The notes under the pieces are model-generated. The model was not told where the DNA came from. It did not search any database and saw only the letters and a list, made by a program, of their open reading frames with translations. Shown in pieces: positions 5,767 to 63,900 of a stretch of 64,000 nt of DNA; position 1 is the stretch's first letter, and each line of letters starts with the position of its first letter. A program made the position numbers and the translations under genes. This DNA is from Linnemannia elongata (taxonomy: Eukaryota; Mortierellomycota; Mortierellomycetes; Mortierellales; Mortierellaceae). The DNA lies in contig JAXBDG010000008.1 of the NCBI GenBank assembly GCA_036320915.1, forward strand, positions 558,001 through 622,000, in the 5' to 3' direction.

Positions 5767-8700
5767 AAACATGAAGTAAGGCGGGGCAAGGAGCAACTAG
5801 TTAACTAATAGATAAACATACGCATTTGTCTTTTGCTTTGTATCATAACACACACACACTCACACAACATACCCATATCCTTCCATTTATTATCCAATTT
5901 ACGAAACAATAAGCCAATAATAATAATAAAAAAAAGGCGCTTCAGCTACAAAAAAAAATGTATAGCAACATGCGCCCATGCAGTAGCTCCCTTTGTCGCT
6001 TCTTCCTGCCGTTGTGCTTCTAAGCCGACGTTTTTTTTCATGCGCCAGAGTCGCCTCTTTCTTGCTAGGCTAGAGAGAGGTTTCTTCATTCATGACGGAT
6101 AGGAGATCCTCTGCTGTGTTTTGAAGAATCTTCGGCTGCATGTGACTTCATGACGCGAAAAATGGTAGAACCATGCAGGAGATAGGGGTAAGGATGGAGG
6201 GGGAAATTACATGCATAAGGAGCAAGTGGAAAGGGGGGGGGGTTCTGTTTGGGATGCACCTGGTAAGATGAAAGGGAGTCATCGAAGAGTCAAGCATAGG
6301 TCGGATCGACGCGTTAGGGTATCTTTTGTTTGTTTGGCGCTTTTGGTCTGAGCAAGGGGGTAGGTCAGCAAACAGGTGGTTTTCTTTGAGTTCCTTGTAC
6401 CTAGTCTCTGAATTTTTCGTGGAAAAGAAGAAATATCAAGCAGAATCAACTTTGTAGGGGGGGGGGAGCAAACGGGAAAAGAACAGACTGGTAGAAATCT
6501 ACATGCAAGCGTCACATGGAATGGGCGGATGGATGAATGAAGGAACGAAGGAGAGGGAGAGAAACGAGGCTCGGGGTGGCGAGCGTGGGCTTCTAATGCA
6601 TCTGCATTGCACTACGCTTCTTTTTATGTCCGTTTCGACTCCTTTTAGAGAGCTCTTGGTGTGCTTTTCGTTTGGGTGTTGCGCCCAGGCTTTGCTTTAC
6701 CGAAAGTGATGCATGCTGCAGAAGTTCCTGTTTTTTCCCTTCCTCGTCATTCCTTTCTTCCGTCCTTCGATGAGTTAGCCATGTGAAGAAACATTGCAAA
6801 TGAGGAGCTGATGCACCATCGCAGCAAGCACTGACATTGAGATTGAGTTTAAGATACGGATTGACACCTTTTTCTTCGTTCTCATGCTTCCCACACTAAC
6901 AACGACAGGGAACGAACGTGGTAAAATGCGCCTAGTCATCTTTTGATTGTTGTACGCCCAAAGCCATGAAAATTTAACGAGCCAACGGAGCCAACCAACC
7001 AACCTCATCTCTTTCTTCCACCTCGCACGCACGCTCTCTCACCTTTTCCCTCTATCTGTCGACAATGCATATTTATTGATATGCCTGCAATGTTTTCGCC
7101 TCTCTGTTCGGGAGGAAAGCAAAAAGAAACAAAGGACATCAACAAAAAAAGGGATGCTTTTTTGTTTGTTGACGAGTAAAGGGTGATGATTGTGCAAGTT
7201 ATCAAATTGGTCTCCTGTTTTGATGCATCTTTTTCTCATGCTAGCCGTAATGGTTTTTTTCCGTTCTTTTCTGTGTATCTTGATGTGTGTGCAGGCAGGG
7301 CCATAGCCATTTGTTCGATTGGTTCACCCAAGGGGTTCGTTGTCTATCTGTGAAGTTATTTTGCTTTCTTTGTTAGAATGGCTTTGAGCGGAAGCAGGAA
7401 GAATTGTGCAGTCGTGTATCTTCCTCGGAGCAATTTTGCTTTGTTGTTGTTTTCTTACTTTTTTTCCTTTCCTCTTTGTCCAGTTGTTGTTGTTCTGAGG
7501 CTGTTGTTCAATGAGTTTTTACTGTGGAATTGAGCGTGGATGATTTGTTGTTGTTATTCTTCGTTGGTTCAACTTGTTGTGGAAGTTTGCCGCATGGTTG
7601 ATTTTGCTGAACCCCCAAGATATTTTTTGCGTATCCTGTGTTCATCGCCACAGAATAGGAAAAGAAAGAAGAGGAGGTGATAAAGGAGAAAAGAACCCGG
7701 CGTAATAAAGGAAAAACAATATGTCTTGAAAGACCTCTATCGTTAGGAGAGAGGCGAACGGAAAGGTGGTTTGATTGGGATTGAATGCGATCGTGCAGGT
7801 ATCTTTGTACGGTAAGGTCCTTCCCGTATCTGAATAGAGTTGTTGCGTTCAGTGGCTACACCCCAGGATCTAGGAATGGGTGGGCGGGCTGACAGTGAAA
7901 CACAATACCCAGATGTGTCGTTTGAACGACAAATCTGGGCATGGACCCAAAAGGATACAACAAAGCAGTATGTTAAACAGAAGAGCAACTATTTCTCAAT
8001 GTGGCCTATAAAGAAAAGTAAAGGCGAAAACGCGCGAGTGCTGGACTGCGCACGAAGTGGAGAAGGTTGTAGGTGACTGAGGATCAATTATTACGAGAAA
8101 ATATTGGCTTATGTGAGGATGTGACAAAACAAGGGGGAAGCAACACATAGACAGAAAAAAGGGGGAGAGGGCCGAATGGGCTTTTTCTATTGTTTTCGTA
8201 CACTACATGTCCTCACAGAAACTGCTGTGTGGATGAAACAAGTGTGACAGAGATGATTGTTAAGGTTGTGGTTATTCTCTTGGATGGGTGGAAGGCAAAA
8301 GGATGGGCGAATGTCCATAGTTTCAAGGTATTATATGGGAGAGAAAAAGTAATGATGATATGAACAAAACATGATGATGTGGGAAGCAGATGGGGAAGGG
8401 AGTGACAAAGACAGGGTGGGTGAGTTCATTTCTGTGCAGTTGTTTTGTTTGTCTCTTTCATCGCCCGATCATCGCTCGTGAGTGAATGAGAGTGGGCAAG
8501 ACGAAGACTACAAGAAGATGTTCAGATTGGCAGGTTGATCGCGCAGTCGCCAAACCCTCAGACATAATGAAGCGCCCATCTACTGTAGATGAAAAGTGTT
8601 GCGCCCTGACCGTGTCTCGCCCTCTCAGCAAATGGCGTTTGTTCCAATTGTCTCGAAATCCAAACTCAGACATAAAGAAGGTCAAGTGTATGTGGATGTG

Positions 8701-9131
8701 TGGGTGGAAGACAACGGTTGCCATGTCCTCCTTAACGCTGCTTTTTTCCTCTCGAGCAATAGCCAACTCTTTCCACCACCACCCCTGATTGACTCATTTC
8801 TTCTTGCTTGCCACTCACTCTATGTGTCCTCATTCATTCAATCATTGCACACATACTCTCCATTCCAACTCTCATTTGCAATGCAAACAGCCCCTGTTGC
8901 CCTTTCCGTTCACCTTTTTTTTCTTCTCTTTGATTGATTGCTCTCCTTTGTTCGACAGCATAAATAGCGCTTTTTCAAATTTCACTTTCCCCTCTTCCTC
9001 CTTTCTTCACTTCCAACCCTTGCTCTGTTCATTGTTCACATCACAGAGACATATACCCTGAACACACATCCACCCTCTACGGTGATACAGATCAACAGAC
9101 CTTTATCCTCATCCTCACAACCCAACAAGCG
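5767..9131. other. 3.4 kb intergenic region upstream of the BTB gene
   Basis: I see no supportable gene. The stretch holds two long G runs (about 6232-6242 and 6457-6465), GT-rich segments around 7240-7600, and a near-perfect 32-nt palindrome at 7908-7939. The end is probably promoter and leader of the BTB gene: a TATA-like cataaatag at 8959-8967 is followed by a CT-rich and then A/C-rich tract up to the ATG at 9132. Open frames such as 8486-8788 lack any domain and start inside low-complexity sequence. Confidence 0.5.
7908..7939. repeat. 32-nt near-perfect palindrome
   Basis: The two 16-nt halves are reverse complements at 14 of 16 positions. The outer 7 bp (CCCAGAT/ATCTGGG) and an inner block (TGTCGTT/AACGACA) pair fully; one mismatch lies between them and a T-G wobble at the centre. 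It can form a hairpin in either strand or be a dimeric protein-binding site. It lies about 1.2 kb upstream of the BTB gene in otherwise featureless DNA, and its role is unknown. Confidence 0.6.
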
Positions 9132-48298: not shown

Positions 48299-49683
48299 TC
48301 AAGACGAGGAGGTGTCGGTACAAGGAATAGTGGCGTCAAGCGTGCTGGAATCGGATGACAGAAAGGCATTTGTGGCATGGAAAGCGAAGGGACTCTGGAA
48401 GATACCAAAGTGGTTCGAGTGTTCGGGATTGAAGTCACAGTGATTCTCAATTACCAAGTTTTGTAACCAAGGTGCTTTTGCCTCGACTCCCACCCTCTCC
48501 ACAGAAGTGGATTCGAGTGCTTCAGGAAAAGTCATGACGCCGTTGGTGAAGGGGGTCACCATATTGTCGCGACTGGTGACGATGTTTAAGTACCGGACGC
48601 CCGGTACCTCGGCTTGCATACCATCATCTCCGTATAGCGCCTTCATTAATTCGGAGCCTTCGAGGAGCTGAACACAGGCGGCGCAGTACTGCTGGACGGC
48701 GTCTTTGAGAAAGTCAAAGACCCCCAGGACTTGTGTCATTGACACTAGGCCCTGGACGGATGTGCCCTTTCCGACGGGTGCGATGCTCACCAACGAGCGA
48801 ACGCGTCCTGGCCGTTCTTGGTGGGTCTTCTGATCCGTGTTGTCCTCCTCAACGTTTTGTTGTGGCTGACCTTGGCGATCGAGGAACTTGAGGTAGTAGC
48901 GGGCGAGGACTGTGCCCTCGGAGTGGCCGATGAGGTCAACTTTTTGGGTGGATGGGGAAGAAGTGGTTGCAAGGACTTTTGTGATGAAGACATCAAGTTC
49001 CTTTGCGGACTCGCGGATATCTGTGAGGCCGCCTATAGTCTCGAAACCTGGGATCATCCCGTACTTGAGCTGCAAGAAGAACGGGGAAGGGTGGAGGGGA
49101 TGTTTACGTGTCAGGGAACGAGGGTCGGGGGCTGTTAAATTGAAGAAAATTAAGTACCAGCGCTATTGTTGGATCATGTTGAATGGAAGTAGTTTACCTG
49201 GTAGACACAATATCCTTCTTCTGACAGGCGTTCAGCCATGACTCTCCAGCTTGTATATCGCCATCGCAACACAAAATCGATATTTATCGTTAATTATTTT
49301 TTTTCCTTCAGGGTGCGCCTAAACCTCTGCTTCAACCTTTGCTCACGAAATGGTTTACCCCTATCTGTTTACCTTGTAAATGAAGGAGCAATGAGTCCAT
49401 GAAGCATGATGACAGGGTTTGGATGCTCATCCGTCAATTGACAGGACCAGTCTGTCTGATCGGATTTGGGGGACGAGACGCCAAGAAAGATGTCTGCGAT
49501 TGAACCTAGTGCTGCCTCGACCGTGTGTACTAGATCTGATGGTGGTGTAGGTTGCGCGGTGTCAACTTTGATAACCTCAAGACTGTCTGAGGTATCTGGG
49601 ATGGGGATAGGAGCCGGTGCAGCATTCGCGCTTGAGAGGAGGAGGGATATAGCAATTGTAAGGAGTAACGTGTTGGCGCGCAT
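48299..49683 (-). CDS. secreted class 2 (EstA-like) triacylglycerol lipase/esterase
   Basis: Predicted 377 residues from exons on the complement: 49373-49683, 49198-49249 and 48299-49069. It is an alpha/beta hydrolase cutting ester bonds of lipids, probably outside the cell. The N-terminus MRANTLLLTIAISLLLSSANA is a classical signal peptide ending at an Ala-Xaa-Ala-like site. The strand-turn HPNPVIMLHGLIAPSF carries the His-Gly oxyanion motif; DLIGHSEGTVLARYYLKFLD has the nucleophile Ser in GHSEG, followed by the RYYLKF block typical of Streptomyces-type class 2 lipases. Cys residues at EGYCVY and QYCAACVQ could form disulphides. A likely acid and the catalytic His (candidate: PEHSNHFGIF) lie in the C-terminal third. 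ATG 49683 is chosen because it begins the signal peptide. Confidence 0.88.
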
Positions 49684-50819
49684 TTTTTTTTTTTGTATTT
49701 TGTGCGAATCGAGAGTAGTAAATAGCGACAAAGAAAAAAAAAAAAAAAGAAAAAAAAATCAGAGGAATGTAGAGAAAGAAAATGAAAAAAGAGCGACATG
49801 ACCAAGAGAGTGGAAAATTACTTTTAATCGGAAAGTGCGACAATTGCAAGCAAAACGCGAACAGCTTTTTTTAGTGGACGTTGATATGCATCTCAAAACG
49901 TGCGATCTCTCAGCACACCCGCCACAGCACATGTAGCTCCTCCTCGTTTGCGCTGTCGTAATTTGGGATGATTCTGATAACCTTTGTCCCCTCCGTGTCT
50001 CTGTCGTTGTGTGTATTTATGTGTGCACGAGTGTGTGCATACGTTACGTTAAGAGAGTGGGCAAAGAAGCAGGGAAGGGAAGGGTAATGCACGTTTGAGA
50101 AGGGACTGAGGACCTCCCAAACGTCTTTATTCCCATCTGGTTCTTGTTCGACCCCACATTTCTGTTGTCTGCTTTTTTTTCGACATTGGAGCGCGTGTCC
50201 AGATTTTTGTTTCCTTACCCATTCTTATTCTTGTTAGGTTATGCACATTTACGAAATCCAGATTTGGCGCCGGTGTGGTACACAGAGAGGGAAACCAGAG
50301 AAGCAATAGTAACGACGGGAGAGCAGACGTCTGCATGAGTGTCTAGGGCAGGTTGAGGATGGATCAAAGGCGAAGGATGAAAGGGAGAAAAGGGGATTTG
50401 TTGCTAGAATGAATATCGACTAACGTATTACTCCTCGTCATAGGGAAGATCGTAGAGGAAAATAGTTTGCCTCAGACAGGAATTGATTTAACTGTTGTTG
50501 TTGATCCAACATTGGGGTTCTTTCTAGGACGATGTAGCATTCCCAATGTAAATGTTGGGTTTACCCTTCTCTGCCTGCACATGTAAAAATGCACGACCGC
50601 CGTTTTTATCTGAGAGATGGATTGGCGATACAATAGTGGTCATTTGCTTTTTCCAATCCACGTATTGTCCCATTTGAGAGAACAGAGTTGAAGAGAATGA
50701 TGTGTGAATATTTATTTATATGTTACAGGAGATGAATGATGCAAGTGTTGGGTGTTGATGGTACAAGCCTATTGTAGGCGAATGCTTGAAGAGGGAGTGG
50801 AGCCATGGAGGAAGCCGTT
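49684..50819. other. lipase upstream region and border of the small-gene array
   Basis: 1.1 kb with no recognised gene. AT-rich; A runs near 49735-49760, and short frames without domains. The right end is the 3' flank of the first MSLFKS gene. Confidence 0.5.
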
Positions 50820-51002
50820 TTACATAAGGCTGAAGTTGGCGGGCATAGTCTGTACCGACTTGCGGAGGGCCATCTCAAGGGCCTGGTCGCGGGTCATCTT
50901 GACTTGAGCAGGGCGCTGGGCATCGACTGAGGAGCGAGGGGTCTGGGCTGGGGTCGAGGCAGCGGAGGAGGTCTTGTTCTTGTTGGACTTGAAGAGAGAC
51001 AT
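50820..51002 (-). CDS. MSLFKS small protein, copy A
   Basis: 60 residues, single exon. I do not recognise the family; it is defined here by six copies. Conserved core: MSLFKSNKNK, then Ser/Ala-rich SSAASTPAQTPR with two (S/T)-P sites, a Ser-Val and RP, then MTRDQALEMALRKSVQTMP, probably a short amphipathic helix, ending FSLM. No signal peptide, membrane helix or Cys. It is nearly identical to copy D (about six differences), which lies in the opposite orientation. Head-to-head with copy B over 753 bp. A TATA box (minus strand tataaat, 51141-51147) lies 139 bp upstream of the ATG, followed by a CAA-rich leader. Such a core promoter and leader suggest strong or inducible expression; the function is unknown. 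Confidence 0.82.
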   Translation of the reverse strand: MSLFKSNKNKTSSAASTPAQTPRSSVDAQRPAQVKMTRDQALEMALRKSVQTMPANFSLM

Positions 51003-51755
51003 GGCTGGTTGTATTGTTGGTTGGCTTGAGAGGGAGGACTTGAGATATGGAGGGAGAGTTGCTCTGGGTTGCTAGAGTTGCTGTTGTTTGTTGATGTTGT
51101 TGTTGAGAATGAGGAATGAAAAGGTGGGGAGAGAGCAAGTATTTATACAAGTTGTCAATCCAGGGGCCAAGGTGCAATTGGGATATCGTCGTCATAGTCA
51201 AGAGTGCAAAGAAGATCATTGTCTGCCTGTCACTTTGTTGTGGGTTGCACGGTTCATTTCCACTCTTGGCAAGCTTGGGTTTGTTGGTAGAGTTACACTC
51301 CGCTCTTTCTTCCCATCCGCCGCATTGGAAAAAAAAATCTTTATTTCTACTCTGTCTATCTGTTCACACTCAAAATGCCTCAGGCACAAGAAGACAAACA
51401 AACAGCGTCATAATTGGTGAGCAAGTGTCGACTCTTTTTGCCGCCGCAGAACAACGGCCATGACATGACTCTAATTTTGATCCCTGTCTCCGCTTCAAAA
51501 AAGATGATGACTATGACACAAAACGAAGAAGCAGCCAGAATGGTCCATGCTCGGACGGAGGCACGGTACTCGATTAGAAAGCAATTGGCAGCGAAACAAA
51601 GGAGTATAAAAATCCTCCGTTCCCCTCCTTTCTTTTCTGCATTTTCATCACCAACAAATACAACAACAACAAAGCAAGAACCAAGCTACCCAAGCAATCA
51701 AGGCTCCATTTCTCCTTCCAAGTCCCAATCACTCCTCACAAGCCAAACCACAATC
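51003..51755. promoter_or_regulatory. divergent promoter of copies A and B
   Basis: Holds TATA boxes facing both ways (51141-51147 minus, 51605-51612 plus) and, 50 bp upstream of the plus-strand TATA, the motif TGGTCCATGCTC (51541-51552) that recurs in the other two divergent promoters. Leaders on both sides contain CAACAACAA. Confidence 0.65.
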
Positions 51756-51944
51756 ATGTCCCTCTTCAAGTCCAACAAGAACAAGTCTGCCTCTGCTGCT
51801 GCCTCTCCAGCCCAGTCCCCTCGCACATCGATCGATGCACAACGCCCAGTAGTCGAGGGAAACACGATGACTCGTGAGCAGGCCATCCGTCTGGCCATGC
51901 ACAACTCTCAACAGAAGTTGCCTCACCACTTTAGCCTTCTGTAA
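51756..51944 (+). CDS. MSLFKS small protein, copy B
   Basis: 62 residues, single exon. It shares MSLFKSNKNKSASAAASPAQ, SPR-S and RP with its relatives, has a slightly longer linker (VVEGNT), then MTREQAIRLAMHNSQQKLP and the ending FSLL. The helix part (EQAI..AM) is closest to copy C. Unknown function. TATA box tataaaaa at 51605-51612, 144 bp before the ATG; the leader contains several CAA units. The ATG is the first codon of the conserved block; the frame is open further upstream only through the leader. A polyadenylation-like AATAAA is at about 52022. Confidence 0.82.
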   Translation: MSLFKSNKNKSASAAASPAQSPRTSIDAQRPVVEGNTMTREQAIRLAMHNSQQKLPHHFSLL

Positions 51945-52065
51945 ACATGGGACTACCGAGCTCACACCACATTTGCATATCATTCATCCTTCATTGTACA
52001 ATACCACCCACTAGCATCTTCAATAAACCCATTACATACTACTCTCTACACCATTTTGTTTGCTC

Positions 52066-52174
52066 TGAATGCTTGTATCCACCTTGTTGTTAGTTGTGAA
52101 TGCTTGCATACACCTTGTTGTTAGTTGTGAATGCTTGCATACGCCTTTTTGTTAGTTGTAAATGCTTGCATGCC
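52066..52174. repeat. 31-bp tandem repeat, about 3.5 copies
   Basis: Units of 31 bp (consensus begins TGAATGCTTGCATACACC) at 52066-52096, 52097-52127, 52128-52158 and a partial unit to 52174, differing by one to three bases each. It lies between the 3' ends of copies B and C, near the inferred centre of an older inverted duplication. Confidence 0.85.
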
Positions 52175-52667
52175 ATACCATGTCATGGAATGTGGAGGGG
52201 GAGTGATCAACAACTGTCGCCTTTTCATTTCATACTTCCGATTTTTCTCTCCATAACACGCGTCAGATTATTCATAAGAGAAAACGGTCAGGAGCAGAAC
52301 TGAAACTGATTGACATGTTGATGTGTCAGACTGATCAGTGCCTGTTTGATGGATCTGACTGATGGATCTGACTGACCAATCGTCCCTTCTTTTTTACTCT
52401 CTTGCTTCTTTCAATTGCTCAATCTCAGAACATCATTCGTTATAACAGACATAAAGGGAAAACCGGGGTAAATACAAGGTAGATAGAGTAGAAATAGGAT
52501 GCAAGTGTTTATTTTATATTAGAGGATTGAGAATGCAGGGTGGGGTATGATGAAGAGATGTGATGAAGAGATGCAAAGCGTAGGGGTATGAGAGGCAGGC
52601 CTTGAGGGAGACCGCCCTTGTGGGAGACCATCCTTGCGGGCCAGCTGGACCAGGTGTTGGAGCTTCT

Positions 52668-52847
52668 TTACATAAGGTTGAAGTTGAGGACGTTGGCCTG
52701 GACAGTCTTCTTCATCGCCATCTTGATGGCTTGCTCCTGCGTCATCTTGGTCTCAGGACGCTGCTCGTTGAGGGAGGCACGAGGGGTCTGGGCAGGGGTG
52801 GTGGCAGCAGAGGCGGTCTTGTTCTTGTTGGACTTGAAGAGAGACAT
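52668..52847 (-). CDS. MSLFKS small protein, copy C
   Basis: 59 residues, single exon, found by translating the complement directly. It reads MSLFKSNKNKTASAATTPAQ, then TPRAS, LNEQRP, and MTQEQAIKMAMKKTVQ before the ending FNLM. It is the shortest and most divergent at the C-terminus (ANVLNF replaces TMPANF). The QAI-x-x-AM pattern links it to copy B. Unknown function. TATA box on the minus strand (tataaaag, 53003-53010) 156 bp upstream; leader rich in CAACAACAAC. Head-to-head with copy D over about 1 kb. Confidence 0.8.
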   Translation of the reverse strand: MSLFKSNKNKTASAATTPAQTPRASLNEQRPETKMTQEQAIKMAMKKTVQANVLNFNLM

Positions 52848-53859
52848 GGTTGGTTGTGTGTGTTGTTGTTGGCTTGAGTGGGAGGGAGACTTGAGGGTGG
52901 GTTGCTTTGGTGGTTGGTCGCTTGGGATAGCTTGAGTTGTTGTTGTTTGTGTTTGGTTGTTGTTGTGATGAGGAATAGAAAAAGAGGGAGGGGATGCTGT
53001 GCCTTTTATACTCTTTTGAGTTCCCTCGACAATTGTCTTTAAGCGTTTCCTATCTTGGCAACGACGTTTGAAAGAGACGTCAACAACTCAGAAAATCGAC
53101 TGCCGACTGCCGACCATTGCCGTGGAAGGGGAGGAAGGTCGAGCATGGACCATTCCATTCGCTTCTGTGGCAAAGCGCGGAGTGTTCCCTTCTTTCCCTT
53201 CTCGAATTCTTGAATTAGACATGTTGCTTTTCTCGCAGTTCTTTCTTTGATTTTTTTGTCTCCGCACGGAAGAAAACAAATTCGACGCTCACATTTTCAC
53301 AACCAACCCTCAACCCTTGATGACGATTGTTGACATGAACGTGTAGAGAGAGAGGTGGGACAGGTACAAATATGGACTCCATTGGATGCAATGAGAGAGG
53401 CGGCAGAGTGGACAGGGGCAGTGGGGCAGTGGACCAAAAAGGGCAGCGGGCGGAGTGTATACCTTGGCACAGTTTGTTGCTTTGTTGTCTCCAACACTGC
53501 CAAGAGAGGAAATGAACAACCATGCCAAAAGTGGCGCGGCGACCTTTTTTCTTGCAATTAGTATATGCTGCGGGTATGGGAAACCCAAACTGCGGGTATG
53601 AAGAAGGAGAAAGAGAGAGAGAGGAACTACTTTATGATTCTTGGCTACAGTGCCGGTTCAGCCTTGGCAGGTTCGAGTCATGGAGAGACCCCTGCAAAGT
53701 AGAAAGGAAAGGGTCAGGAAACACATATAAAAGGTTGTTGACCACCCTCTTTTTTCCTCCATCACTCAACAACAACAAAAAGCAACAACAAAAAGTAAGA
53801 CCATCTCCAAGTACCTCTACTCAAGACCCATCTCACCAGCCAACACACAGCTACCAAAC
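52848..53859. promoter_or_regulatory. divergent promoter of copies C and D
   Basis: TATA boxes at 53003-53010 (minus) and 53726-53733 (plus). The minus strand carries TGGTCCATGCTC at 53141-53152, about 130 bp upstream of the copy C TATA. No gene is recognised between the boxes; a G/A-rich stretch lies at 53340-53460. Confidence 0.6.
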
Positions 53860-54045
53860 ATGTCTCTCTTCAAGTCTAACAAGAACAAGACCTCATCCGC
53901 TGCCTCGACCCCAGCCCAGACTCCTCGTCCCTCAGTTGACACCCACCGGCCTTCTCAGGTCCCCAAGATGACCCGCGACCAGGCCCTCGAGATGGCTCTC
54001 CGCAAGTCGGTCCAGACCATGCCCGCCAACTTTAGCCTCTTGTAG
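53860..54045 (+). CDS. MSLFKS small protein, copy D
   Basis: 61 residues, single exon. Identical to copy A over MSLFKSNKNKTSSAASTPAQ and over MTRDQALEMALRKSVQTMPA; differences lie in the linker (PSVDTHRPSQVPK) and the last residue (FSLL). It is on the opposite strand to copy A, so the pair is best explained by an inverted duplication. Unknown function. TATA box tataaaag at 53726-53733, 127 bp before the ATG; leader with CAACAACAAC. An AATAAA signal follows at about 54159, inside tacaataaaagc. Confidence 0.83.
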   Translation: MSLFKSNKNKTSSAASTPAQTPRPSVDTHRPSQVPKMTRDQALEMALRKSVQTMPANFSLL

Positions 54046-55319
54046 TCAGTTTTCTCTAGTTTTCTCTGGCGAGGGCATTTACCTCCTCTCACCTCCATTG
54101 CCTCAACGGGGGTTGTACATCATCTTAATACTCACTCGCACACTGTATCATACTACAATAAAAGCATACTCTTCCCAAGAATCTTCCATTACTTTTATTT
54201 GTTGTTTGTCAATGCTTCCAACTATTGAATAAGCCAACAATAACCAAAACGCGACTTTGTCACTGCACCCTACAGAATCGAAACTCAGAAACAAGGTCCT
54301 AGATGAATCAGGCCAGCCGAGACCTGGATCGAGTGCAAGACTGGCAAGGAAAGAGTCGATCCCACTACCATCGCCTCCCTTGAACACGTTCTCAGGAACA
54401 ACTAGAACAACTTCAATGTCAGACCCCCTGTGCTATTTGACCATCGGGCGACATCTTTTTTTAGACCACATTTTCTCAGGAGTAAACCCCACCTCCACCT
54501 CCACTCATGCTTAATGCCTTTTAGCCCTGACCGTGCGCGATTTTCCTTTTTTCTCAGCAAAGGTGTGCCTCCCTCTGCCCAACTCCGACTTCTCCGATTC
54601 AAATTGAAAGAAGTGGATGATTCCTTTTCGGACAACACAATGTCCATACACTATTGTATTTCGCTTGAACATGCTCTAGACCCCCTTCAAATAAGCATAG
54701 TATTAGTACGGTTCAAGTAAATTTATGATCATGAAACAACAGTAAAAATTGGCTTCAACATATCATTAACATTTGTCGTAAAACTCATAAACTGCTTTCT
54801 TCTCGGGGATGCGTCCTTTGGGCTCCTTGTCCAAGGTATACTTGTCAAGAGGGAGAATGATCAGCTGGAGACATTTCAATGGCAGGGAGAATGAAGTTGA
54901 CAAGGGTGAGGTGATGAATGCCAATGTTGGGGTTGAGAAAGGTGATGAAGGAAACAGAGAAACAGATGAGTTTGGTAGGAAACGAAGAATAGGATGATAG
55001 GCTGTGATTCATGGCTGAGAAAAACGAAGAGCTTGCCAACGAAACGACACATTCATAACCCACGGGTGGCGCGGTTCAGGTACCATCAGCTGAAGGTGAT
55101 TGATCGATACGTGTTCCTTTACTTGTAGTTTTGTTGATAAATAACGTTCTTGACCGTTGCCCATCGATATCGATCCACACGCTTATAATGATAATGTATA
55201 GTGAATGTTTATTATTTTGATATACAGGGGAATGGGTTGTATGCAGTGTAGTGTTACACGCCTGAGAAGGCTATGAATGCTTGAAGATGGAACCGAGAGA
55301 GGTGTGTCTCGCCTGGTGG
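54046..55319. other. region between copies D and E with coding relics
   Basis: Two protein-like stretches without a complete gene. Plus strand, 54233-54514: a frame running SLHPTESKLRNKVLDES, then QPRPGSSARLARKES and IPLPSPPLNTF. Minus strand, about 55063-54766: a hydrophobic frame (TKLICFSVSFITFLNPNIGI) followed, in another frame after a possible acceptor at 54865, by LIILPLDKYTLDKEPKGRIP and a stop. They look like decayed exons. The part from 54930 on belongs to the left arm of the inverted duplication. Confidence 0.4.
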
Positions 55320-55641
55320 TTACATGACGGTAGAGATGGAAGGCATGGTCTGGACAGCCTTGTGCAAGATAGAGTCAAGAGCTTGCTCGGTAGTCATCTT
55401 CTTGGTGGTCTGGGCGGCAGGGCGCTGGGCATCGACCGAGGGACGAGGAGTCTGAGCAGGAGAGGCAGCAGCAGAGGCAGACTGGTTCTTGGTAGACTTG
55501 AAGAGAGACATGATGGAGAATGTGATTTGGCTTGGGAGGGAAGGACTTGAAGGGATGGGAGGTTTGCTTTGGTTGTGTTGTTGTTGTTGTTGATTGTTGT
55601 AATGGAGAATAAAAAAGTGAGAGGTCATTGTTGCTTTTATA
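54930..55641. repeat. left arm of a large inverted duplication (copy E side)
   Basis: The reverse complement of this arm matches 56074-56820 from the TATA box through the leader, the whole coding region and the 3' flank, up to a shared ctttctcaaccc. The coding parts specify identical proteins; the flanks show substitutions and small indels that increase away from the gene. Confidence 0.82.
55320..55511 (-). CDS. MSLFKS small protein, copy E
   Basis: 63 residues, single exon, identical in protein sequence to copy F. It starts MSLFKSTKNQSASAAASPAQ (Thr and Gln replace Asn and Lys of the other copies), continues TPRPSVDAQRP, has the longest linker (AAQTTKK), then MTTEQALDSILHKAVQTMP and ends ISTVM. 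The FSL(L/M) ending is lost. Unknown function. TATA box on the minus strand (tataaaag, 55634-55641), 123 bp upstream of the ATG; CAA-rich leader. Head-to-head with copy F over 702 bp. Confidence 0.83.
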   Translation of the reverse strand: MSLFKSTKNQSASAAASPAQTPRPSVDAQRPAAQTTKKMTTEQALDSILHKAVQTMPSISTVM

Positions 55642-56213
55642 CAGAGTTGAGCATGGACCAGTAGACATTTGTTACAAAACACTACAAAGTCGACAATAAC
55701 GCTGCGTCTTGTCTTCACCCACAGTGTCCATTTCATGACATTCCAGGAACCGCCGTGTCGTTTTTTTTTTTGTCATCTAGCATGGTATTCTTATTTGTCA
55801 ATGGCTGTTCTTCTCTTGGAAAGTGTAAACAAACAATCGTCATTGCTGACGGACTGAATGAGGGGATAAAAATATGAGCAACAAAAAAAGCATGGAAATG
55901 AATGGGAACAAAATTTCCCTCAAGTCATTCACAGGGGCAATTGAGCGGACATTGTTCGTATTCTTGACTCCGCTAGCTATGGAAACAAAGAAATGGTCTA
56001 TGCTCGGCAACTCGGCCTTCGACTTTTAGGTCGTCATCGCCAGGATTAGCCTTCTAGAAGGGAAGAGACAAGGTATAAAAGCAGCAAGGGTCCTCTCTCT
56101 TTTTTATTCTTCATCACAACAAGCAACAACAACAACACAACCAACAACACAACCCAAGCAACCCTTCCTTCCCTTCAAGTCCTTCCCTCCCAAGCCAAAT
56201 CACATTCTCCATC
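55512..56213. promoter_or_regulatory. divergent promoter of copies E and F
   Basis: Minus-strand TATA at 55634-55641 with TGGTCCATGCTC just upstream (55649-55660, minus strand); plus-strand TATA at 56074-56081 with a one-mismatch copy, TGGTCTATGCTC, at 55994-56005. The plus side also has TTCTAGAA (56052-56059), which matches a minimal heat-shock element (TTCnnGAA), 14 bp before the TATA. The left side lacks this segment, so the two promoters differ although the genes are identical. Confidence 0.62.
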
Positions 56214-56820
56214 ATGTCTCTCTTCAAGTCTACCAAGAACCAGTCTGCCTCTGCTGCTGCCTCTCCTGCTCAAACTCCTCGTCCCTCGGTCGATGCCCAG
56301 CGCCCTGCCGCCCAGACCACCAAGAAGATGACTACCGAGCAAGCTCTTGACTCTATCTTGCACAAGGCTGTCCAGACCATGCCTTCCATCTCTACCGTCA
56401 TGTAACCACCAGGCGAGACACACCTCTCTCGGTTCCATCTTCAAGCATTCATAGCCTTCTCAGGCGTGTAACACGACACTGCATACAACCTATTCCCCTG
56501 TACATCATAATAATAAACATTCACTATACATTATCCTTATGTGCGTGTGGATCGATGAGTTTGATTACCGGTCAAGAACGCTGTCTATCAGCAAAACTAC
56601 AAGTAACGGAACACGCATCGAACAATCATACGCCTTCAGCTGATGGTACCTGAATCTTGTCTTGAGAGAAAAACCGCGCCACCTGTGGCTATGAATGTGT
56701 CGTCTCTTTGGCACGCTCTGTTTCGGTTTTTTCCGCCATGCAATATAGTCTATCACCCCATTCTTCGCTTTCTACCAAACTCATCTGTTTCTCTGTTTCC
56801 TTCATCACCTTTCTCAACCC
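56074..56820. repeat. right arm of a large inverted duplication (copy F side)
   Basis: Inverted match of 54930-55641, starting at the TATA box and ending at ttctcaaccc. Slightly longer than the left arm because of small insertions in the 3' flank (for example near 56660). Confidence 0.82.
56214..56405 (+). CDS. MSLFKS small protein, copy F
   Basis: 63 residues, single exon, identical to copy E at the protein level. Features are as in copy E: MSLFKS start, two (S/T)-P sites in SPAQTPR, a charged linker, a probable C-terminal helix, no Cys and no membrane segment. TATA box tataaaag at 56074-56081, 133 bp upstream of the ATG; leader with several CAACAACAA units. A heat-shock-element-like TTCTAGAA lies just upstream of the TATA. 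An AATAATAAA signal follows at about 56507-56515. Identity with E despite diverged flanks suggests recent duplication, gene conversion or purifying selection. Unknown function. Confidence 0.83.
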   Translation: MSLFKSTKNQSASAAASPAQTPRPSVDAQRPAAQTTKKMTTEQALDSILHKAVQTMPSISTVM

Positions 56821-57142: not shown

Positions 57143-59232
57143 TTATAACTTTGAGCGAACTGTCGGGATGGTTATTTTGTTTCTATGAAGAGACGATCGT
57201 GCACTCGCTGTCCACTCGTCATTTCTTCTCCACAATTCTCTCGTTCTTTCATCCATTCTCTCAAACACGCCAGCTTGCAACGTCAAGTCTGATGACCAAA
57301 CAGTCGCCATTCTCTCATATCGCGCGCCGCTTTGCCCACCGTTCTTCTCATCGGACGAGAAATTGGTGATCTCTGACGTATCCAAGGCCTTAAATCCATG
57401 CCCATGCACAAAACGGAAATATCTCTCCATCACACGATGCCCAAACTCCCTTTCTACTTCCGTCAAGTACCACTGACCCATATCCGACATGAGAGTCTGC
57501 GCCATCTCAGTGCCATGAGGCACTCCGAGACCTAACCCTAACCCTTCTACGGCCTCCAGGGGGCGATCGACGTAATATCGATAAACGGTTCGGTCTGTGC
57601 CCTCCTGCTGAAGCAAACCCTGACAGGCGGCAAGTGTGGGGTAGTTCGTAAAAATATCGCCAACAATCTTGTCTGCGAATGACTTCGCCTCTGCATCCGT
57701 CTTGGGTTTCCCGTATATGGCTTCAACTTCTTGATGCAACCTCGTGTCCACCCAACGATCCAAGAAACTTTGCCATTGTTGCAATTTACTTGCTCCGAGT
57801 GTTCTTGTGAAGTGAGTTCCTTCGTCTTTGGCGCTTCCGAAGAGAACTGACTTGACCCCAGAATCGTAGAGGGTTGGGTTCCAGGCCATGGTCGATTCCG
57901 GACTTGGGAAAAGATACTTGTTGTCGACTATAGGGCTGAACATCCCATCAAATCCAGGGAGATCTGGGGCTTGCACAAGGCATTCCGCGGGAATGTCTCG
58001 TAGCATTTGCGAACGTTGCAGCTCAGGTGAGAGACGACTTGCCCCTTCTTGATTCGCCGGTAACGTCTCCTTGGTCTTGAAATGATCACATAGGTGATCA
58101 AAGACTTTTTGGCAATGGGTATCTGTAGTTCGTGTCAGAGCGACGCAAGCCGGACTCGAGTGGATGATGGCTTGAGTGAATAAGCCATGGTGGCTCTTGA
58201 TCCTCATGTGATGCAGGATGAGGTTTCCCCCACTTGAATATCCCATGGCTGTGACATTAGATGGACAACCTCCGAAGGCGGCAATGCTTCTTTGAACCCA
58301 TTCGAAGGCGAGTCTCTGATCCGCGATCCCCCAGTTACCGTAGGCTTGATCTTGGTCGTGTGTATGTTGTAGGCGAATGTTCTCAGGATCAGAATCAAAC
58401 TCAAGGGCTAGCTCTTTTGAAGAGAAGAAACCAAGGTAACCGAGACGATAATTGGGAACCACAACTATCACGGGTAGGTTTGCCTTGACGGAAGCCTGGA
58501 CAAAATTCGACGCATCTAACCAATTAAAAAATGGGGGGGGGGGGGAGACAGGCTTAGGACTTAAGAATCAATAAGCTTCAACGAAACAAGAAACAGTAGA
58601 TACGGTAATGATTGACTCTTACCAAACATTGGATGACCATTTCCTCCATGACGAAACTTTCCCCCGTGCATAAGAACCATCACGGGTATCCCTTTTTCCG
58701 GCTTGGTCTTGAGCACAGGTGCGTATATATCAAGATTCAGGCAGTCGCGCTCAGAGTACTTGAAACCATCCATCACAGTTGGCAAACCGTTGAGGTCAGT
58801 CATGAGCGTGCTCTTTTTAAGAAGTATTTGCGGGCACAGTGGTCTATTAGCATTTTTTTTTAAGAAAAATAAATAAATAAAGAGGCATATTAACCGGAAT
58901 TAGTTACTAAATCATGGCCTCCATCATGATGATGATGGTGGGAGGAGGAAGGGAGAAGGGGAGTTCGGATGATTGCATCAAGTCATATACCCTGGCCGAG
59001 TTGCATCCCGAACGCCAAGCCAAGGTTTTACAGAAGCTGCTTTGCGCCAACGTTTGTTCACCACGGCAAACGGAATGCCCAAATAGCGTGTGAGACCTCG
59101 AAGCTCGTCTCTAGTGCCCTGGACGGCGCCTTGATCTGGGATGTTCACAATTGGTGAGTCGCCAATGCGCTCGATACCCACAGTGGGATCAGGAATGTTG
59201 TCAGGAAGGGATGCGTGGTGAAGGAAAGCCAT
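57143..59232 (-). CDS. type B carboxylesterase/lipase (COesterase family)
   Basis: Predicted 611 residues from exons on the complement: 58991-59232, 58623-58843 and 57143-58515. It hydrolyses carboxylic esters. Visible features: the N-terminal GAVQGTRDELRGLTRYLGIP strand pair, SERDCLNLDIYAP, the oxyanion loop VMVLMHGGKFRHGG, VVPNYRLGYLGFF, NWGIADQRLAFEWVQRSIAA and the nucleophile block VTAMGYSSGGNLI (GxSxG; Tyr-Ser replaces the usual Glu-Ser). The acid is probably in SAKDEGTHF and the His in GVPHGTEMAQ, both at family-typical places. There is no signal peptide at the chosen ATG (MAFLHHASLP), so it is probably intracellular. The length is normal. Substrate unknown. A run of about 13 G/C bases lies in intron 2 (58535-58547). 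Divergent from the asparagine synthetase-like gene. Confidence 0.9.
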
Positions 59233-60987
59233 GACGTAAAGCCAAAAATGTATAAAAAAAACCCAAGGATATTTGTGAAGAATGATAGAGGGATTTGAGG
59301 TACAGGTTCAGCTTTTCTTATATATATGGCACAAATAGTGCCATAAGTTTTTCATCCTTCGTTGTTTTTATGGCGGCCTCCCCCTTCAAACCTTTTTCCC
59401 CTTGATCATTTCGGCTCCTTTTTCCCCTTGAATTTTTCGGATCCTTTTTTTTAAAAAATTCTTTCTCTTGTTTTTTTTATCTTATCTTTTTAGTATCTCC
59501 TCGATCTCTCCTTCTGCTCCCTTCTCTCTCTCTCTCTCTCTCTTCTCTTTCCCTCTTCACTCCATCCCGTCAATTTCTCCGTTCGCTCCATGCCGTCTCT
59601 TTCTCCTTTCACTCCATCCCTCTTTGTCCCTCTTTTTTTGCATCCTTCCTTCCTCTCCCTCTCTTTGATCTTTTTGTATCTCTCCTTGTTGTGTTGGTGG
59701 ATCTTTTTATGTATTCCCCCTTTCTCACGCTGCCTGTCGATCTATTACTGTGCATGGTTATGTTCGTATTTCCTTCCTTTCCTGTGTCTCCTTAATTTTT
59801 CCGTTGGCTCCTCTTTTTTTTCATGTTCCTCGAAATATATGCAGGACAAGTGATTGTGCCTTTCAACCAAAATGATGTAAAAAAAAATTAACCAATAATC
59901 CAGCTGTGAGCGGGGTCTGCATGGGTGTGGGAACAAAGATGTTGTCCTGAATAGCTGGCGAATCGGGATTTAGTTGCCAAAACAAAATATTTTATGTGAA
60001 ATTCCCAAGAAAAGAATGGTTATGTTTCTTGAGGCCAAGGAGAAGAAAGAGTCTGTTGTTTATTTTCCACCCTGAACAGGATAATAAGCATGTTCAGCTG
60101 GTAACAAGGGCCCATATGTGCGCTTCGTTGAATAAAAAGAGGTAAACAAAAAATAAACCCGCACCGCGACACAAGAGAGTGGGAACTGCGAATGGACAAG
60201 GAAAAGAACAAGGGAGAATAAGAAAGCGAGCAAGGAGAAGACCAGAGAGACAAAGATACTAGAGAACAAGAGAGACAAGGAGACTTGGGGACAAGAGCAA
60301 TAGAAATCAAGGTGTGGCGCCAAGACGTAGATGACCCTCTGTTGTTTGTGTGCAATATAACACTTCTCTTTGTTTTATGCAACACCGATCGATTGTTCCA
60401 CACCCAAATTGAACTTTAAGAAATATTGAATATGGTATTGAAATAAAAAATTGAACCAGAAATCATGGTCAGAATTTTTTTAGAGGGTTTCTGACAGACA
60501 AAGCGATGCCTTGAATCCTCCTTGCTCACCCCTTCCTCTCCTTGCCCTCGGCTTCTCTTGATCCTTGTCTCATTTTTGGAAAAAACGTCAATCAGGGATA
60601 GAAACATCATAAGAGAAGGATGAGAAAAGTTGGGAGGGAGAGGGGATATGAAGAACGTGAAAAATTGCCTAACCTGACGTGCACTATAAAGAAGGGAGGA
60701 TAGCCTATTGTGGATGGGCACCATGCCATTACCCATTGACATGCGCCCTCAAAGTCAGACCTAAGACTGTTGATAATTGGGCCTTACAAACTGGAGCCTA
60801 GATCATATCTATTGCTCTCAATTAACAGAAAGAAGGTGAGGCATTTTTTTCAAGCATGCAGCATCAGAATTTTCTCGAAGTGGATGATGGAACGTATAAA
60901 GGTGCAGAAAGGTGGAGCGGTTCTTTTCCCCGTTTATCAATTCATTCCTTCCTAAACATATTCCTCCCTTTTAAAGATCACAAAAAC
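59233..60987. other. divergent intergenic region, carboxylesterase to asparagine synthetase
   Basis: 1.75 kb. A TATA-like tatatatatgg (59318-59328 region) lies about 90 bp upstream of the carboxylesterase start. CT-rich repeats of a roughly 60-bp theme (TCTCTTTCTCC...CTCCATCCC) fill 59500-59700 and produce false open frames. Nothing else recognised. Confidence 0.5.
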
Positions 60988-63900
60988 ATGTGCGGCTTGT
61001 CAGCTTATTGTCACTTGGGCACTCCTCAAAAAGACACTAAAAACTTTCGTTTAGATCTCAAAGGCTCCTTGGAATCCATTCGGCACCGCGGTCCTGAGTC
61101 TGATGGCACCTATATTTCTCCATGTGGCCGTCGTAGTAAGCAAAATTAGTCATAGACTATACAGGAGCTTTGACAAGGTTCTCATATGTGTATTCTACGT
61201 TCTGTCTAGGCCTAGGTCATGTGCGTTTGTCCGTTATCGACTTGGAAGGCGGTCATCAACCTATCTCCAGTGCTAATGGCGACATCCAAGTTGTCGTCAA
61301 TGGTGAATTATATGACCATGATCGTTTGAGCAAGGAGCTTCAAGACAAGGGTCATGTCTTCAAGACCAAGAGTGATAGTGAACTGGCTCTTCATTAGTAA
61401 GTTCAATTATCGCCTTCATCCTCCTTCCCTCTCTACTCCATCTCCCATTACATCCAAGTGTCTTTAATCTCAATGTTTCCGTTCTTGTTTCATACCCCTT
61501 ATTTCAATACCAACATTCTGACTAAAACATAATTTTACCCCTTAGCTATGAAGACTATGGTACCGACTTTTTGCATCATCTTCGTGGTGAATTCGCCGTT
61601 ATCATCTGGGATGACAGCAAGAAAAGAATGTTGGTGGCTCGAGACCGATTTGGTGTTAAACCCATTTATTACACTACTGTGAATGATGTGTTTATGGCCG
61701 CAAGTGAAATCAAAGCCTTCTCTGCACTTGGCTGGAGACCTGAGTGGGTAAGACGAGAAAAAATGCCTCTGCATCCCCTTGGAGGAACTAGCCCACTCAG
61801 TATTATTTTCCTCCCTTTCATTTTCCTATAGGACTTGGAATCTATCATTAGTGGCGGCTATGCCACCGACCATCGTACCTGTTTCAAGGGAGTGTACAAG
61901 GTAAGTGACTACCGTTTCACGGATAGGAGGTATATAGAGAAACGCTTTCTTATTGTCTAATTCTAATACTCTATCTCGATACTTTTCAGCTACCGCCTGC
62001 TCATTATATGACAGTCTCTGCCAGTGGAACCATGGACACCACAAAATATTGGGTAAGCTTAGAGATTAGACTTTGAAGAGTGATTGAGATTAAAAATATT
62101 ATGGAGTCCAACTCATCATTTTCCTCACCATGAAATCATTAGGATGCCGAATACCCTGACAAGAATATCGAAGACAAGCGTACTCTGGAGGAGATGATTC
62201 AAGGTGTGCATGACCATGTCGTTGAATCCGTCCGTCTTCGATTGCGTGCCGATGTGCCTTTGGGTGTATACCTTAGTGGTGGGTTGGATAGCTCTTCTAT
62301 TGCCGGTGTAGCCACCAAGCTCTTGCGAGACAGCAACTCTGATGCCCAAATTGATACCTTTTGTATTTCCTTCAAAGGTAAGCTTTCAAAAAATGAGGAG
62401 TAAAATTCTTTAGATATTATTGGTACTATTGGGCATTTCACATAAAATGTTTTGTTTTGGCCACTAAACCCCGATTAGCCAGCTATTCTGGTCAACATTT
62501 TTGTTCTACACCCATGCGAACCCCGCTCACAGCTGGATTAGTGGTTGATTTTTTACATCATTTTGGTTGAAAGGCACAATAACTTTGTTTGTTTTTCATA
62601 GATGGTGGAATATATGACGAAGGCGACATTGCTGAACGTACAGCAGCTCATATTGGTTCCAAATTCCACAGACTCTCCTTAACTCAAGATGATTTGGTCG
62701 ATAACTATGAACGAACATTGTGGCACGTCGAGCAACTTATTCTCGACTTGAATGCGGTTGGCAAGTTCTTGCTCTCAGAGTATGTGCGTCATAAAGGCTT
62801 CAAGGTAATTAGAGCAAAGCAAAGATTGAACCATCTTCGTTTTTTTTTATTGCGCAGAGAAATAATTGACTCTACCTTGGATCTCGCTTGTGGGTCCGCT
62901 TTTTTAGGTGGTGATGACCGGCGAAGGCAGTGATGAACACTTTATTGGCTATCCCTTCTTCCACACGGATTACCTGCGAGAACAAGATCGTTCCACCCCC
63001 AAGGGTTTTGGTTGTATTGCTGAAGAAGATCGTCAAGACATGTTGAGCGATCGCTTGGCGGGAAGTTACAAATTCCTCCATTATGAATTGCCCAGAGAAA
63101 CCAAGATCAACACCAAGGCTCGATTCAACGACAGTGATCTACCTGACCAAATTGGCAAAATGCTTGCCTTGTCCACTGACTTTATGAATTCCAAAGTCGT
63201 CTCTTACCATGGCCCTGCTGATGTCGGCTCCACCGTATTGGACTCGATCCATGGCGATATAAGACTCAAGGCTACGACTAAATGGCACTCTGTCCATGCA
63301 TCCTTGGTAAGGAAGAGTAGATGTTTAACTCAGGTTGTTTAGTAGGGATATGATTATGGAAAATGTGCAAGGCGACTGATCACGTTTTTATAGTACTTGG
63401 AAACCCGTACCTTTTTCCCCAATGTTATGTTGACTTGGTTAGGTGATCGTGTGGAAATGGCTCATTCCATAGAAGCTCGCACCCCTTTCTTGGATCATCC
63501 TCTTTGTGAATATGCAAACAGTTTGCCTCCGTAAGTCAAGCAAAAGAATGGACATAAATGAAGTAACTGGGAGAGTTCTGTATTTTCACGGATGAGCACT
63601 GTGATCTCATCCATTTTTTTTTTACGCAACTATAGATCTGTCAAACTCTGCGGTCAAGATCCTAAAGGCAACCGTTTGAACGAAAAGTACATCTTAAAGG
63701 AGGCCATGAGACCCTATGTGACAGATGAAATTTACAATAGAACAAAGCAATAGAACAAAGCACCCTTACGTGGCTCCCGCTTCAAAACCTGGAGCTCAAC
63801 CCATTGTTCGTCTCTTGAACAAATGGGTCACCAAGGAACGCGTGGATCATCTGGGTTTCCTCAACTGGGAAACATGCGAAACGATCAAGGAACGTGTCAT

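Follow-up and report, generated by a model that had tools for sequence, protein, structure and literature searches.

Small MSLFKS-motif genes in inverted-repeat blocks of Linnemannia elongata: a family of predicted disordered proteins in the Mortierellaceae

Six small genes in three divergent pairs

We have analysed a stretch of 64,000 nucleotides of Linnemannia elongata DNA (the window; assembly GCA_036320915.1, contig JAXBDG010000008.1, positions 558,001–622,000 of the forward strand) that carries an array of six tiny genes whose proteins share an MSLFKS-type motif. Positions are those of the window unless a contig name precedes them; C31 is the window's own contig, and C1, C2, C10 and C13 are other contigs. 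A first-pass annotation of the array had described six single-exon genes of 59–63 residues, a shared motif and an alternating orientation that forms three head-to-head pairs. All six open reading frames (ORFs) were found, intronless and of 59–63 codons, within 50,820–56,405 (Table 1), on strands −,+,−,+,−,+ as described, and alignment of the six proteins confirmed the motif. The proteins can be aligned end to end, with 24 invariant columns, and that of gene 4 is found identically (100%) at four places on C31. Head-to-head pairing is not general in the family: in one arm on C2, every copy has the same orientation. A polyadenylation-type hexamer lies 77–149 bases 3' of each stop codon; it reads AATAAA for genes 2 and 4 and either TATAAA or AATAAT for the other four. 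Inspection by eye also revealed about three repeats of a unit of ∼31 bp 3' of gene 2, at 52066–52175.

Table 1. Coordinates of the MSLFKS genes, repeat arms and upstream features in the window.
Feature	Position	Strand	Remarks
Left arm of large inverted repeat (genes 1–4)	50738..54492	+	blastn self-comparison; partner right arm C31:623932-627687
Gene 1	50820..51002	-	ORF, 60 aa, MSLFKS protein
Divergent promoter, genes 1/2	51003..51755	.	TATA 51147(-), 51605(+); CAA-rich leaders
GGTCCATGCTCG element upstream of gene 2	51542..51553	+	exact
Gene 2	51756..51944	+	ORF, 62 aa; cross-species class of its own
Gene 3	52668..52847	-	ORF, 59 aa
Divergent promoter, genes 3/4	52848..53859	.	TATA 53010(-), 53726(+)
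GGTCCATGCTCG element upstream of gene 3	53140..53151	-	exact
Gene 4	53860..54045	+	ORF, 61 aa
Inner inverted repeat, left arm with gene 5	54930..55642	+	750 bp at 88.4% vs 56073-56820
Gene 5	55320..55511	-	ORF, 63 aa; protein identical to gene 6
Divergent promoter, genes 5/6	55512..56213	.	TATA 55641(-), 56074(+)
GGTCCATGCTCG-like element, gene 5	55648..55659	-	one mismatch
GGTCCATGCTCG-like element, gene 6	55995..56006	+	one mismatch
Inner inverted repeat, right arm with gene 6	56073..56820	-	partner of 54930..55642
Gene 6	56214..56405	+	ORF, 63 aa; protein identical to gene 5

Copies elsewhere in the genome

With gene 4 as query, a genome-wide search gave 43 matches at E ≤ 10, 36 of them at E ≤ 1e-3. 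Twenty lie in two blocks on C31, 11 on C2, eight on C1, and two at C31:317–319 kb, while C10 and C13 contribute a single weak match apiece. We inspected translations of the C31 and C2 arrays, of some C1 copies and of some at C31:319 kb; no clear family module was visible in the weak matches, located at C31:317 kb and on C10 and C13. The two C31 blocks are 100 kb apart, at 608–628 kb (block A, which includes the array in the window) and 709–723 kb (block B), and four further copies in block A follow directly past the window edge. The amplified small-protein system proposed at first is thus larger than had been claimed, although its interpretation as a matter of dosage has to be qualified, as discussed below.

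At C31:319470(+) lies a divergent member of the family whose leader is of the (CA)n kind, with a weak, unconfirmed match head to head with it at 317336(−) (region 316801–320200). On C2, family copies between 1301600 and 1331400 bracket genes for a helicase of the DEAD-box type, a Zn2Cys6 factor and a protein with weak PPR similarity.

The C31 blocks are palindromes with probably homogenized arms

The array in the window consists of the left arm (genes 1–4) and the centre of an inverted repeat that extends beyond the window edge. In blastn self-comparisons the arms of block A (C31 608,738–612,492 and 627,687–623,932) match over 3757 bp at 99.4%, and those of block B (C31 709,814–713,835 and 722,290–718,267) over 4035 bp at 98.3%. 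Arm identity in both blocks therefore exceeds the 98% by which ampliconic palindromes are recognized, and genes 1–4 are present as multicopy genes in every arm. The spacers, of 11.4 kb in block A and 4.4 kb in block B, contain genes 5/6 plus other sequence. The inverted copies on C2 are only 80–95% identical, and the C1 matches take mirrored positions along their contig.

Two further observations concern the spacers. In the inter-arm spacer of block A, another inverted repeat joins 59882–60008 to 62429–62554; its pieces measure 78 and 56 bp and are 86–90% identical. The spacer of block B contains an open frame of 786 codons (C31:715901–718258), with no Pfam match over the 752 codons scanned.

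The four arms were aligned and substitutions summed over 200-column windows, gaps excluded. In their cores the two arms of a block do not differ at all (0 of 3174 sites in block A, 0 of 3456 in block B), while left arm A differs from left arm B at 203 of 3030 sites (6.7%). By eye, homology ends at the same outer place in all four arms, shortly beyond gene 1; over the final stretch inside this boundary the two arms of block A have already diverged from each other. Since arms are identical within blocks that differ by 6.7%, and the outer boundary is shared, the palindrome most likely predates the duplication of the block, and its arms have been homogenized since. Homogenization after an older duplication, as by gene conversion, is an inference that these comparisons support well. 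Sixteen alignment columns group left arm with left and right with right; all are at the edges, and we gave them no weight because 15 sit where the right arm of block A is no longer clearly homologous.

The ampliconic palindromes of the human Y and X chromosomes (PMC3723533, PMC8981503) likewise carry multicopy genes in near-identical inverted arms, and there, too, an arm resembles its partner in the block more closely than it does the arms of other blocks. The C31 blocks differ from these in lying on a fungal contig with no known sex chromosome, in arms of ∼4 kb, and in genes of ∼60 codons. Such nearly identical mirror-image arms suggest a need for many copies.

Two other origins of this structure were considered. 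If the blocks were fold-back mobile elements with the small genes as cargo, copy number would reflect transposition rather than selection for dose. Long terminal inverted repeats, and two blocks 100 kb apart with a common outer boundary, are what such an element would leave, but the spacers are of unequal length, no target-site duplication is evident by eye at block B, and the genes are under strong purifying selection (see below). Moreover, none of the eight spacer and flank ORFs scanned, which cover part of the spacers, encodes a transposase; seven can be assigned to ordinary families, though in one case with a match below the cut-off, and the eighth matches nothing. We regard this origin as very unlikely. 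Nor do we give more than a slight chance to the inverted arms being false duplications introduced by assembly. The identity of the arm cores would be expected of such an artefact, whereas divergence at the arm edges and the enclosure of unique spacers would not; in addition, the locus tags of family members in L. hyalina fall into two groups ∼30 numbers apart (KI688_007104, 7106, 7107; 7137–7140).

The genes are under purifying selection

Between blocks A and B, genes 1–6 have accumulated 22 synonymous and two nonsynonymous changes, a ratio of nonsynonymous to synonymous substitution rates (dN/dS) of 0.027. This excess of synonymous changes places the ORFs beyond chance and rejects random ORFs as an explanation, a value near 1 having been named at the outset as evidence against the genes. 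All six ORFs are genuine coding genes on which purifying selection acts. Among older paralogues at measurable distance, dN/dS ranges from about 0.09 to 0.73, and constraint is concentrated at one end of the protein: in six paralogue pairs split in two, the proportion of nonsynonymous differences (pN) was 0.04–0.12 over the N-terminal 26–27 residues and 0.27–0.56 over the remainder. In the pair of gene 1 and c1, pN in the tail equals the level of the synonymous proportion (pS).

Codon adaptation was calculated with five H3 genes and one polyubiquitin gene as reference; H3 and polyubiquitin, themselves the reference, reach 0.77 and 0.76. Eight distinct family members score 0.39–0.63, and 12 other exons of the window, chosen by eye as likely coding, score 0.15–0.51. 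These values support an expression level that may be above average, not extreme. The high expression suggested earlier gains indirect support only: the family lies above most of the 12 exons, but when these exons are cut into 48 chunks of sixty codons, 13 chunks reach the family minimum.

Promoters share a TATA box and CAA-rich leaders

A TATA box upstream of every gene, CAA-rich leaders and a contrast with housekeeping promoters had also been noted at first, and all were recovered. The boxes lie 130–163 bp 5' of the ATG in all six genes (−145, −151, −163, −134, −130 and −140 for genes 1 to 6). TATA[ATC][AG] occurs between −163 and −111 in all 31 array copies examined, which are not independent of one another and for which the position was chosen afterwards; the background is 288 of 7133 windows of 70 bp (4.0%) on the same contig. 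Four of five divergent members have it as well, the remaining one carrying CATAAATA at −118. The last 110 bases of the leader hold 11–17 CAA triplets in genes 1–6 and 10–17 across nine family leaders, as compared with 1–5 in ten control genes; in the five divergent members the range is 4–12. A TATA box within 260 bp was present in none of four other window genes and in three of six H3/ubiquitin genes, so that in this small sample the family promoters do differ from housekeeping ones.

The GGTCCATGCTCG element was found 17 times in the genome, as compared with once for a reversed control. Eight sites are in C31 block promoters and represent two promoter positions in each of four arms. Among 15 family promoters, only those of genes 2, 3, 5 and 6 match within one mismatch; no match within two mismatches was found upstream of genes 1 or 4 or in the C2 promoters tested, and one C1 promoter (f2) matches with two mismatches. 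Because the nine sites outside the blocks are, by eye, mostly within open coding frames, the element does not lead to further co-regulated genes. Six 8-mers, all TATA- or A-rich, are common to at least five of 11 promoter groups (0.5 expected from shuffles). Some protein models of relatives (P0039, P0072, P0074, P0144) have MVHAR or MVYAR at or near their start, which could be GGTCCATGCTCG read as codons and suggests that L. zychae has the element too.

A conserved basic module precedes a predicted, class-specific helix

In an AlphaFold2 model (mean predicted local distance difference test score, pLDDT, 63.6) a helix at residues 39–52 is the sole structure. Eight residues (K5, K8, N9, S13, A15, Q20, R23 and S25) do not vary across 62 rows, one of which was entered twice. 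N-terminal to the predicted helix lies a conserved [ST]PxQ[ST]PRxS module; among its instances, collected by a loose regular expression from 161 proteins, the arginine is kept in 174 of 190 and the last serine likewise in 174 of 190. The module resembles a site for a proline-directed and a basophilic kinase, from which we infer that it may be phosphorylated.

The N-terminal 25 residues have a net charge of +3 to +5 in the seven members for which it was computed. A basic, nearly acid-free N-terminus might serve as an address, to mitochondria or to nucleic acid and ribosomes, where the tail would then act, and its better conservation than the tail in the six pairs compared would fit such a role. 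A mitochondrial presequence is usually unlike an N-terminus that is unstructured, of low helical moment and proline-bearing; here the N-terminus is unstructured by model, contains two prolines, and has a helical moment of 0.07–0.23, on which ground a presequence was set aside. Targeting is in our estimation quite unlikely to be the function.

The tail helix of genes 1–4 contains [ILVM]xxA[ILVM]xx[ST] (for example LEMALRKS), a pattern like the core of the ubiquitin-interacting motif (UIM), LxxALxxS, which usually comes with an acidic patch. It is found in 51 of 137 located tails, as compared with 1.9 expected from shuffles, in rows that are related to one another. The helix could then act as a single UIM that binds ubiquitin or ubiquitylated partners, a special case of the adaptor proposal set out below. 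Pfam UIM_2 falls over the tail helix in two of ten proteins (P0125, E 0.0088; P0127, E 0.043), in both cases below the cut-off, and is absent from the 25 of 27 families shown for 62 members scanned. The other 86 tails, among them genes 5/6 and three C2 types tested, do not have the pattern, which makes it a lead rather than a class, and the typical acidic patch is mostly wanting. We consider ubiquitin binding improbable.

Old paralogue classes in the Mortierellaceae

A relatives search at E ≤ 0.01, with a method that requires common 5-residue words, yielded 229 proteins, of which 120 were listed. Wherever an organism is named among these, and among the 37 and 70 proteins of two length-shifted searches at E ≤ 10, it belongs to a genus of the Mortierellaceae; the genera include Actinomortierella, Modicella and Lobosporangium. 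Placement of seven species was looked up in the taxonomy, unnamed metagenome rows were left unassigned, and Mortierella, Podila and Entomortierella we take to be Mortierellaceae. As far as such searches reach, the family therefore appears restricted to the Mortierellaceae; remote relatives may be overlooked because of the need for shared words.

No precomputed Pfam domain is attached to the 120 relatives listed, and Pfam, NCBIfam and PDB gave no family match above cut-off, the best Pfam value being E 0.0037 in one of 62 members scanned. Weak matches to P33MONOX, BORA_N and others were scattered and below cut-offs, and were rejected. The earlier statement that no homologous family could be recognized thus stands for named families, but not for relatives, which are many and unnamed. 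The literature searched, with few subscription journals covered, contains no description of the MSLFKS family, nor does the available part of PMC8778642.

A tree of 139 rows, built on few columns after exclusion of two-module rows, unclear starts and proteins of fewer than 55 residues, has 45 open forks. It nevertheless contains a gene-2 type clade (10 rows, support 100/100) and a gene-5/6 type clade (14 rows, 100/98), each from several species, and relatives of the gene-3 and gene-4 types in other species. The paralogue classes are therefore old, and dosage alone is too simple an account of the amplification. 'Hypothetical proteins' of Mortierellaceae (L. elongata F5H01DRAFT_379465, L. hyalina KI688_007139) belong to the same family and the same classes, and in M. 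hygrophila the consecutive locus tags 009038–009041 encode, by eye, proteins like genes 1, 2, 1/3 and 4 in that order.

Many database models of relatives fuse two neighbouring copies (P0001 and P0123, for example). Such fusions are seen in P0001 and P0121–P0130, from several species, and include F5H01DRAFT_379468 on C31 and F5H01DRAFT_368294 on C2; they are probably prediction artefacts, with spliced read-through as a less likely alternative.

Two relatives carry other names at source, P0127 (Entomortierella parvispora EMPS_05890, 'SMP domain-containing' in UniRef) and P0078 ('N-formylglutamate amidohydrolase'); Pfam at E ≤ 10 bears out neither. SMP is a plant seed-maturation, LEA-type domain, and LEA proteins and yeast Hsp12 are abundant disordered stress protectants. 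The P0127 label thus touches on the idea that the family consists of abundant disordered shields of membranes or proteins, induced by starvation, cold or drying and with no specific partner. Small size, modelled disorder and TATA promoters are common to the family and to Hsp12/LEA proteins; many copies would suit such a role, and a stress response element-like AGGGG is present in 13 of 15 promoters, a raw count without a control set. However, the family differs from these proteins in having no Pfam match and in its conserved TP..TPRxS module, which exceeds the specificity that bulk protection needs. Neither SMP nor any other protectant model appeared in P0127 and nine other proteins at E ≤ 10 or among the Pfam families shown for the 62 members, and the heat-shock pattern, like the cAMP response element (CRE) pattern, was, as used, found in none of 15 family promoters. 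An SMP search of the L. elongata genome gave no matches, but control genomes were equally silent, so that this result carries no weight. Bulk protection seems to us rather unlikely, if far from negligible.

A proposal for the function of the family

We are highly confident that these genes form a family encoding proteins of ∼60 residues, by prediction mostly disordered, that they are under purifying selection and arranged in inverted-repeat blocks, and that they fall into old classes common to several species. That the proteins are also abundant and phospho-regulated is the best overall reading that we can offer, to which we nonetheless give somewhat less than an even chance. On this proposal, soluble and mostly disordered proteins would be made in quantity from genes that lack introns and have a TATA box and a CAA-rich leader, and gene conversion between arms, in itself well supported, would hold duplicates identical and thereby keep the dose high. 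Proline-directed kinases of the MAPK/CDK type and basophilic kinases would act on the N-terminal module, which is basic and invariant and contains [ST]PxQ[ST]PRxS; phosphorylation would adjust partner binding by the class-specific C-terminal helix (MTxEQAL...), and the family would act as a set of abundant adaptors or inhibitors under phospho-control. The adaptor mechanism itself is tentative, with a chance well short of even.

Several results weigh against abundant, phospho-regulated proteins held identical by conversion. The identity of the arms might in part be assembly consensus. The AlphaFold2 model is of low confidence, and in just one of seven members is the amphipathicity of the tail helix above that of shuffles (5%). 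Two of the 12 window exons attain a codon adaptation of 0.51, and the chunks of those exons that overlap the family range count here too, as do the TATA boxes of H3/ubiquitin controls.

More speculatively, the family might constitute an undescribed regulatory system of the Mortierellaceae, in which dozens of disordered phospho-proteins combine one module with class-specific tails, some of them UIM-like, with dose on C31 equalized by palindrome conversion and divergent pairs driven via GGTCCATGCTCG; we think this possible but doubtful in its entirety.

The Mortierellaceae, widespread soil fungi that also serve in oil production, share a large, strongly conserved family without described domain or function. 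The palindromic arrays would offer a compact fungal model of concerted dose evolution away from sex chromosomes. The gene-2 type is almost constant over several species, which would make the results of deletion or pull-down easy to interpret.

Neighbouring genes

The array is flanked by a class-2 lipase (48302–49162) and a carboxylesterase (57146–58567), and an asparagine-synthase-like exon lies at 62908–63339 of the window.

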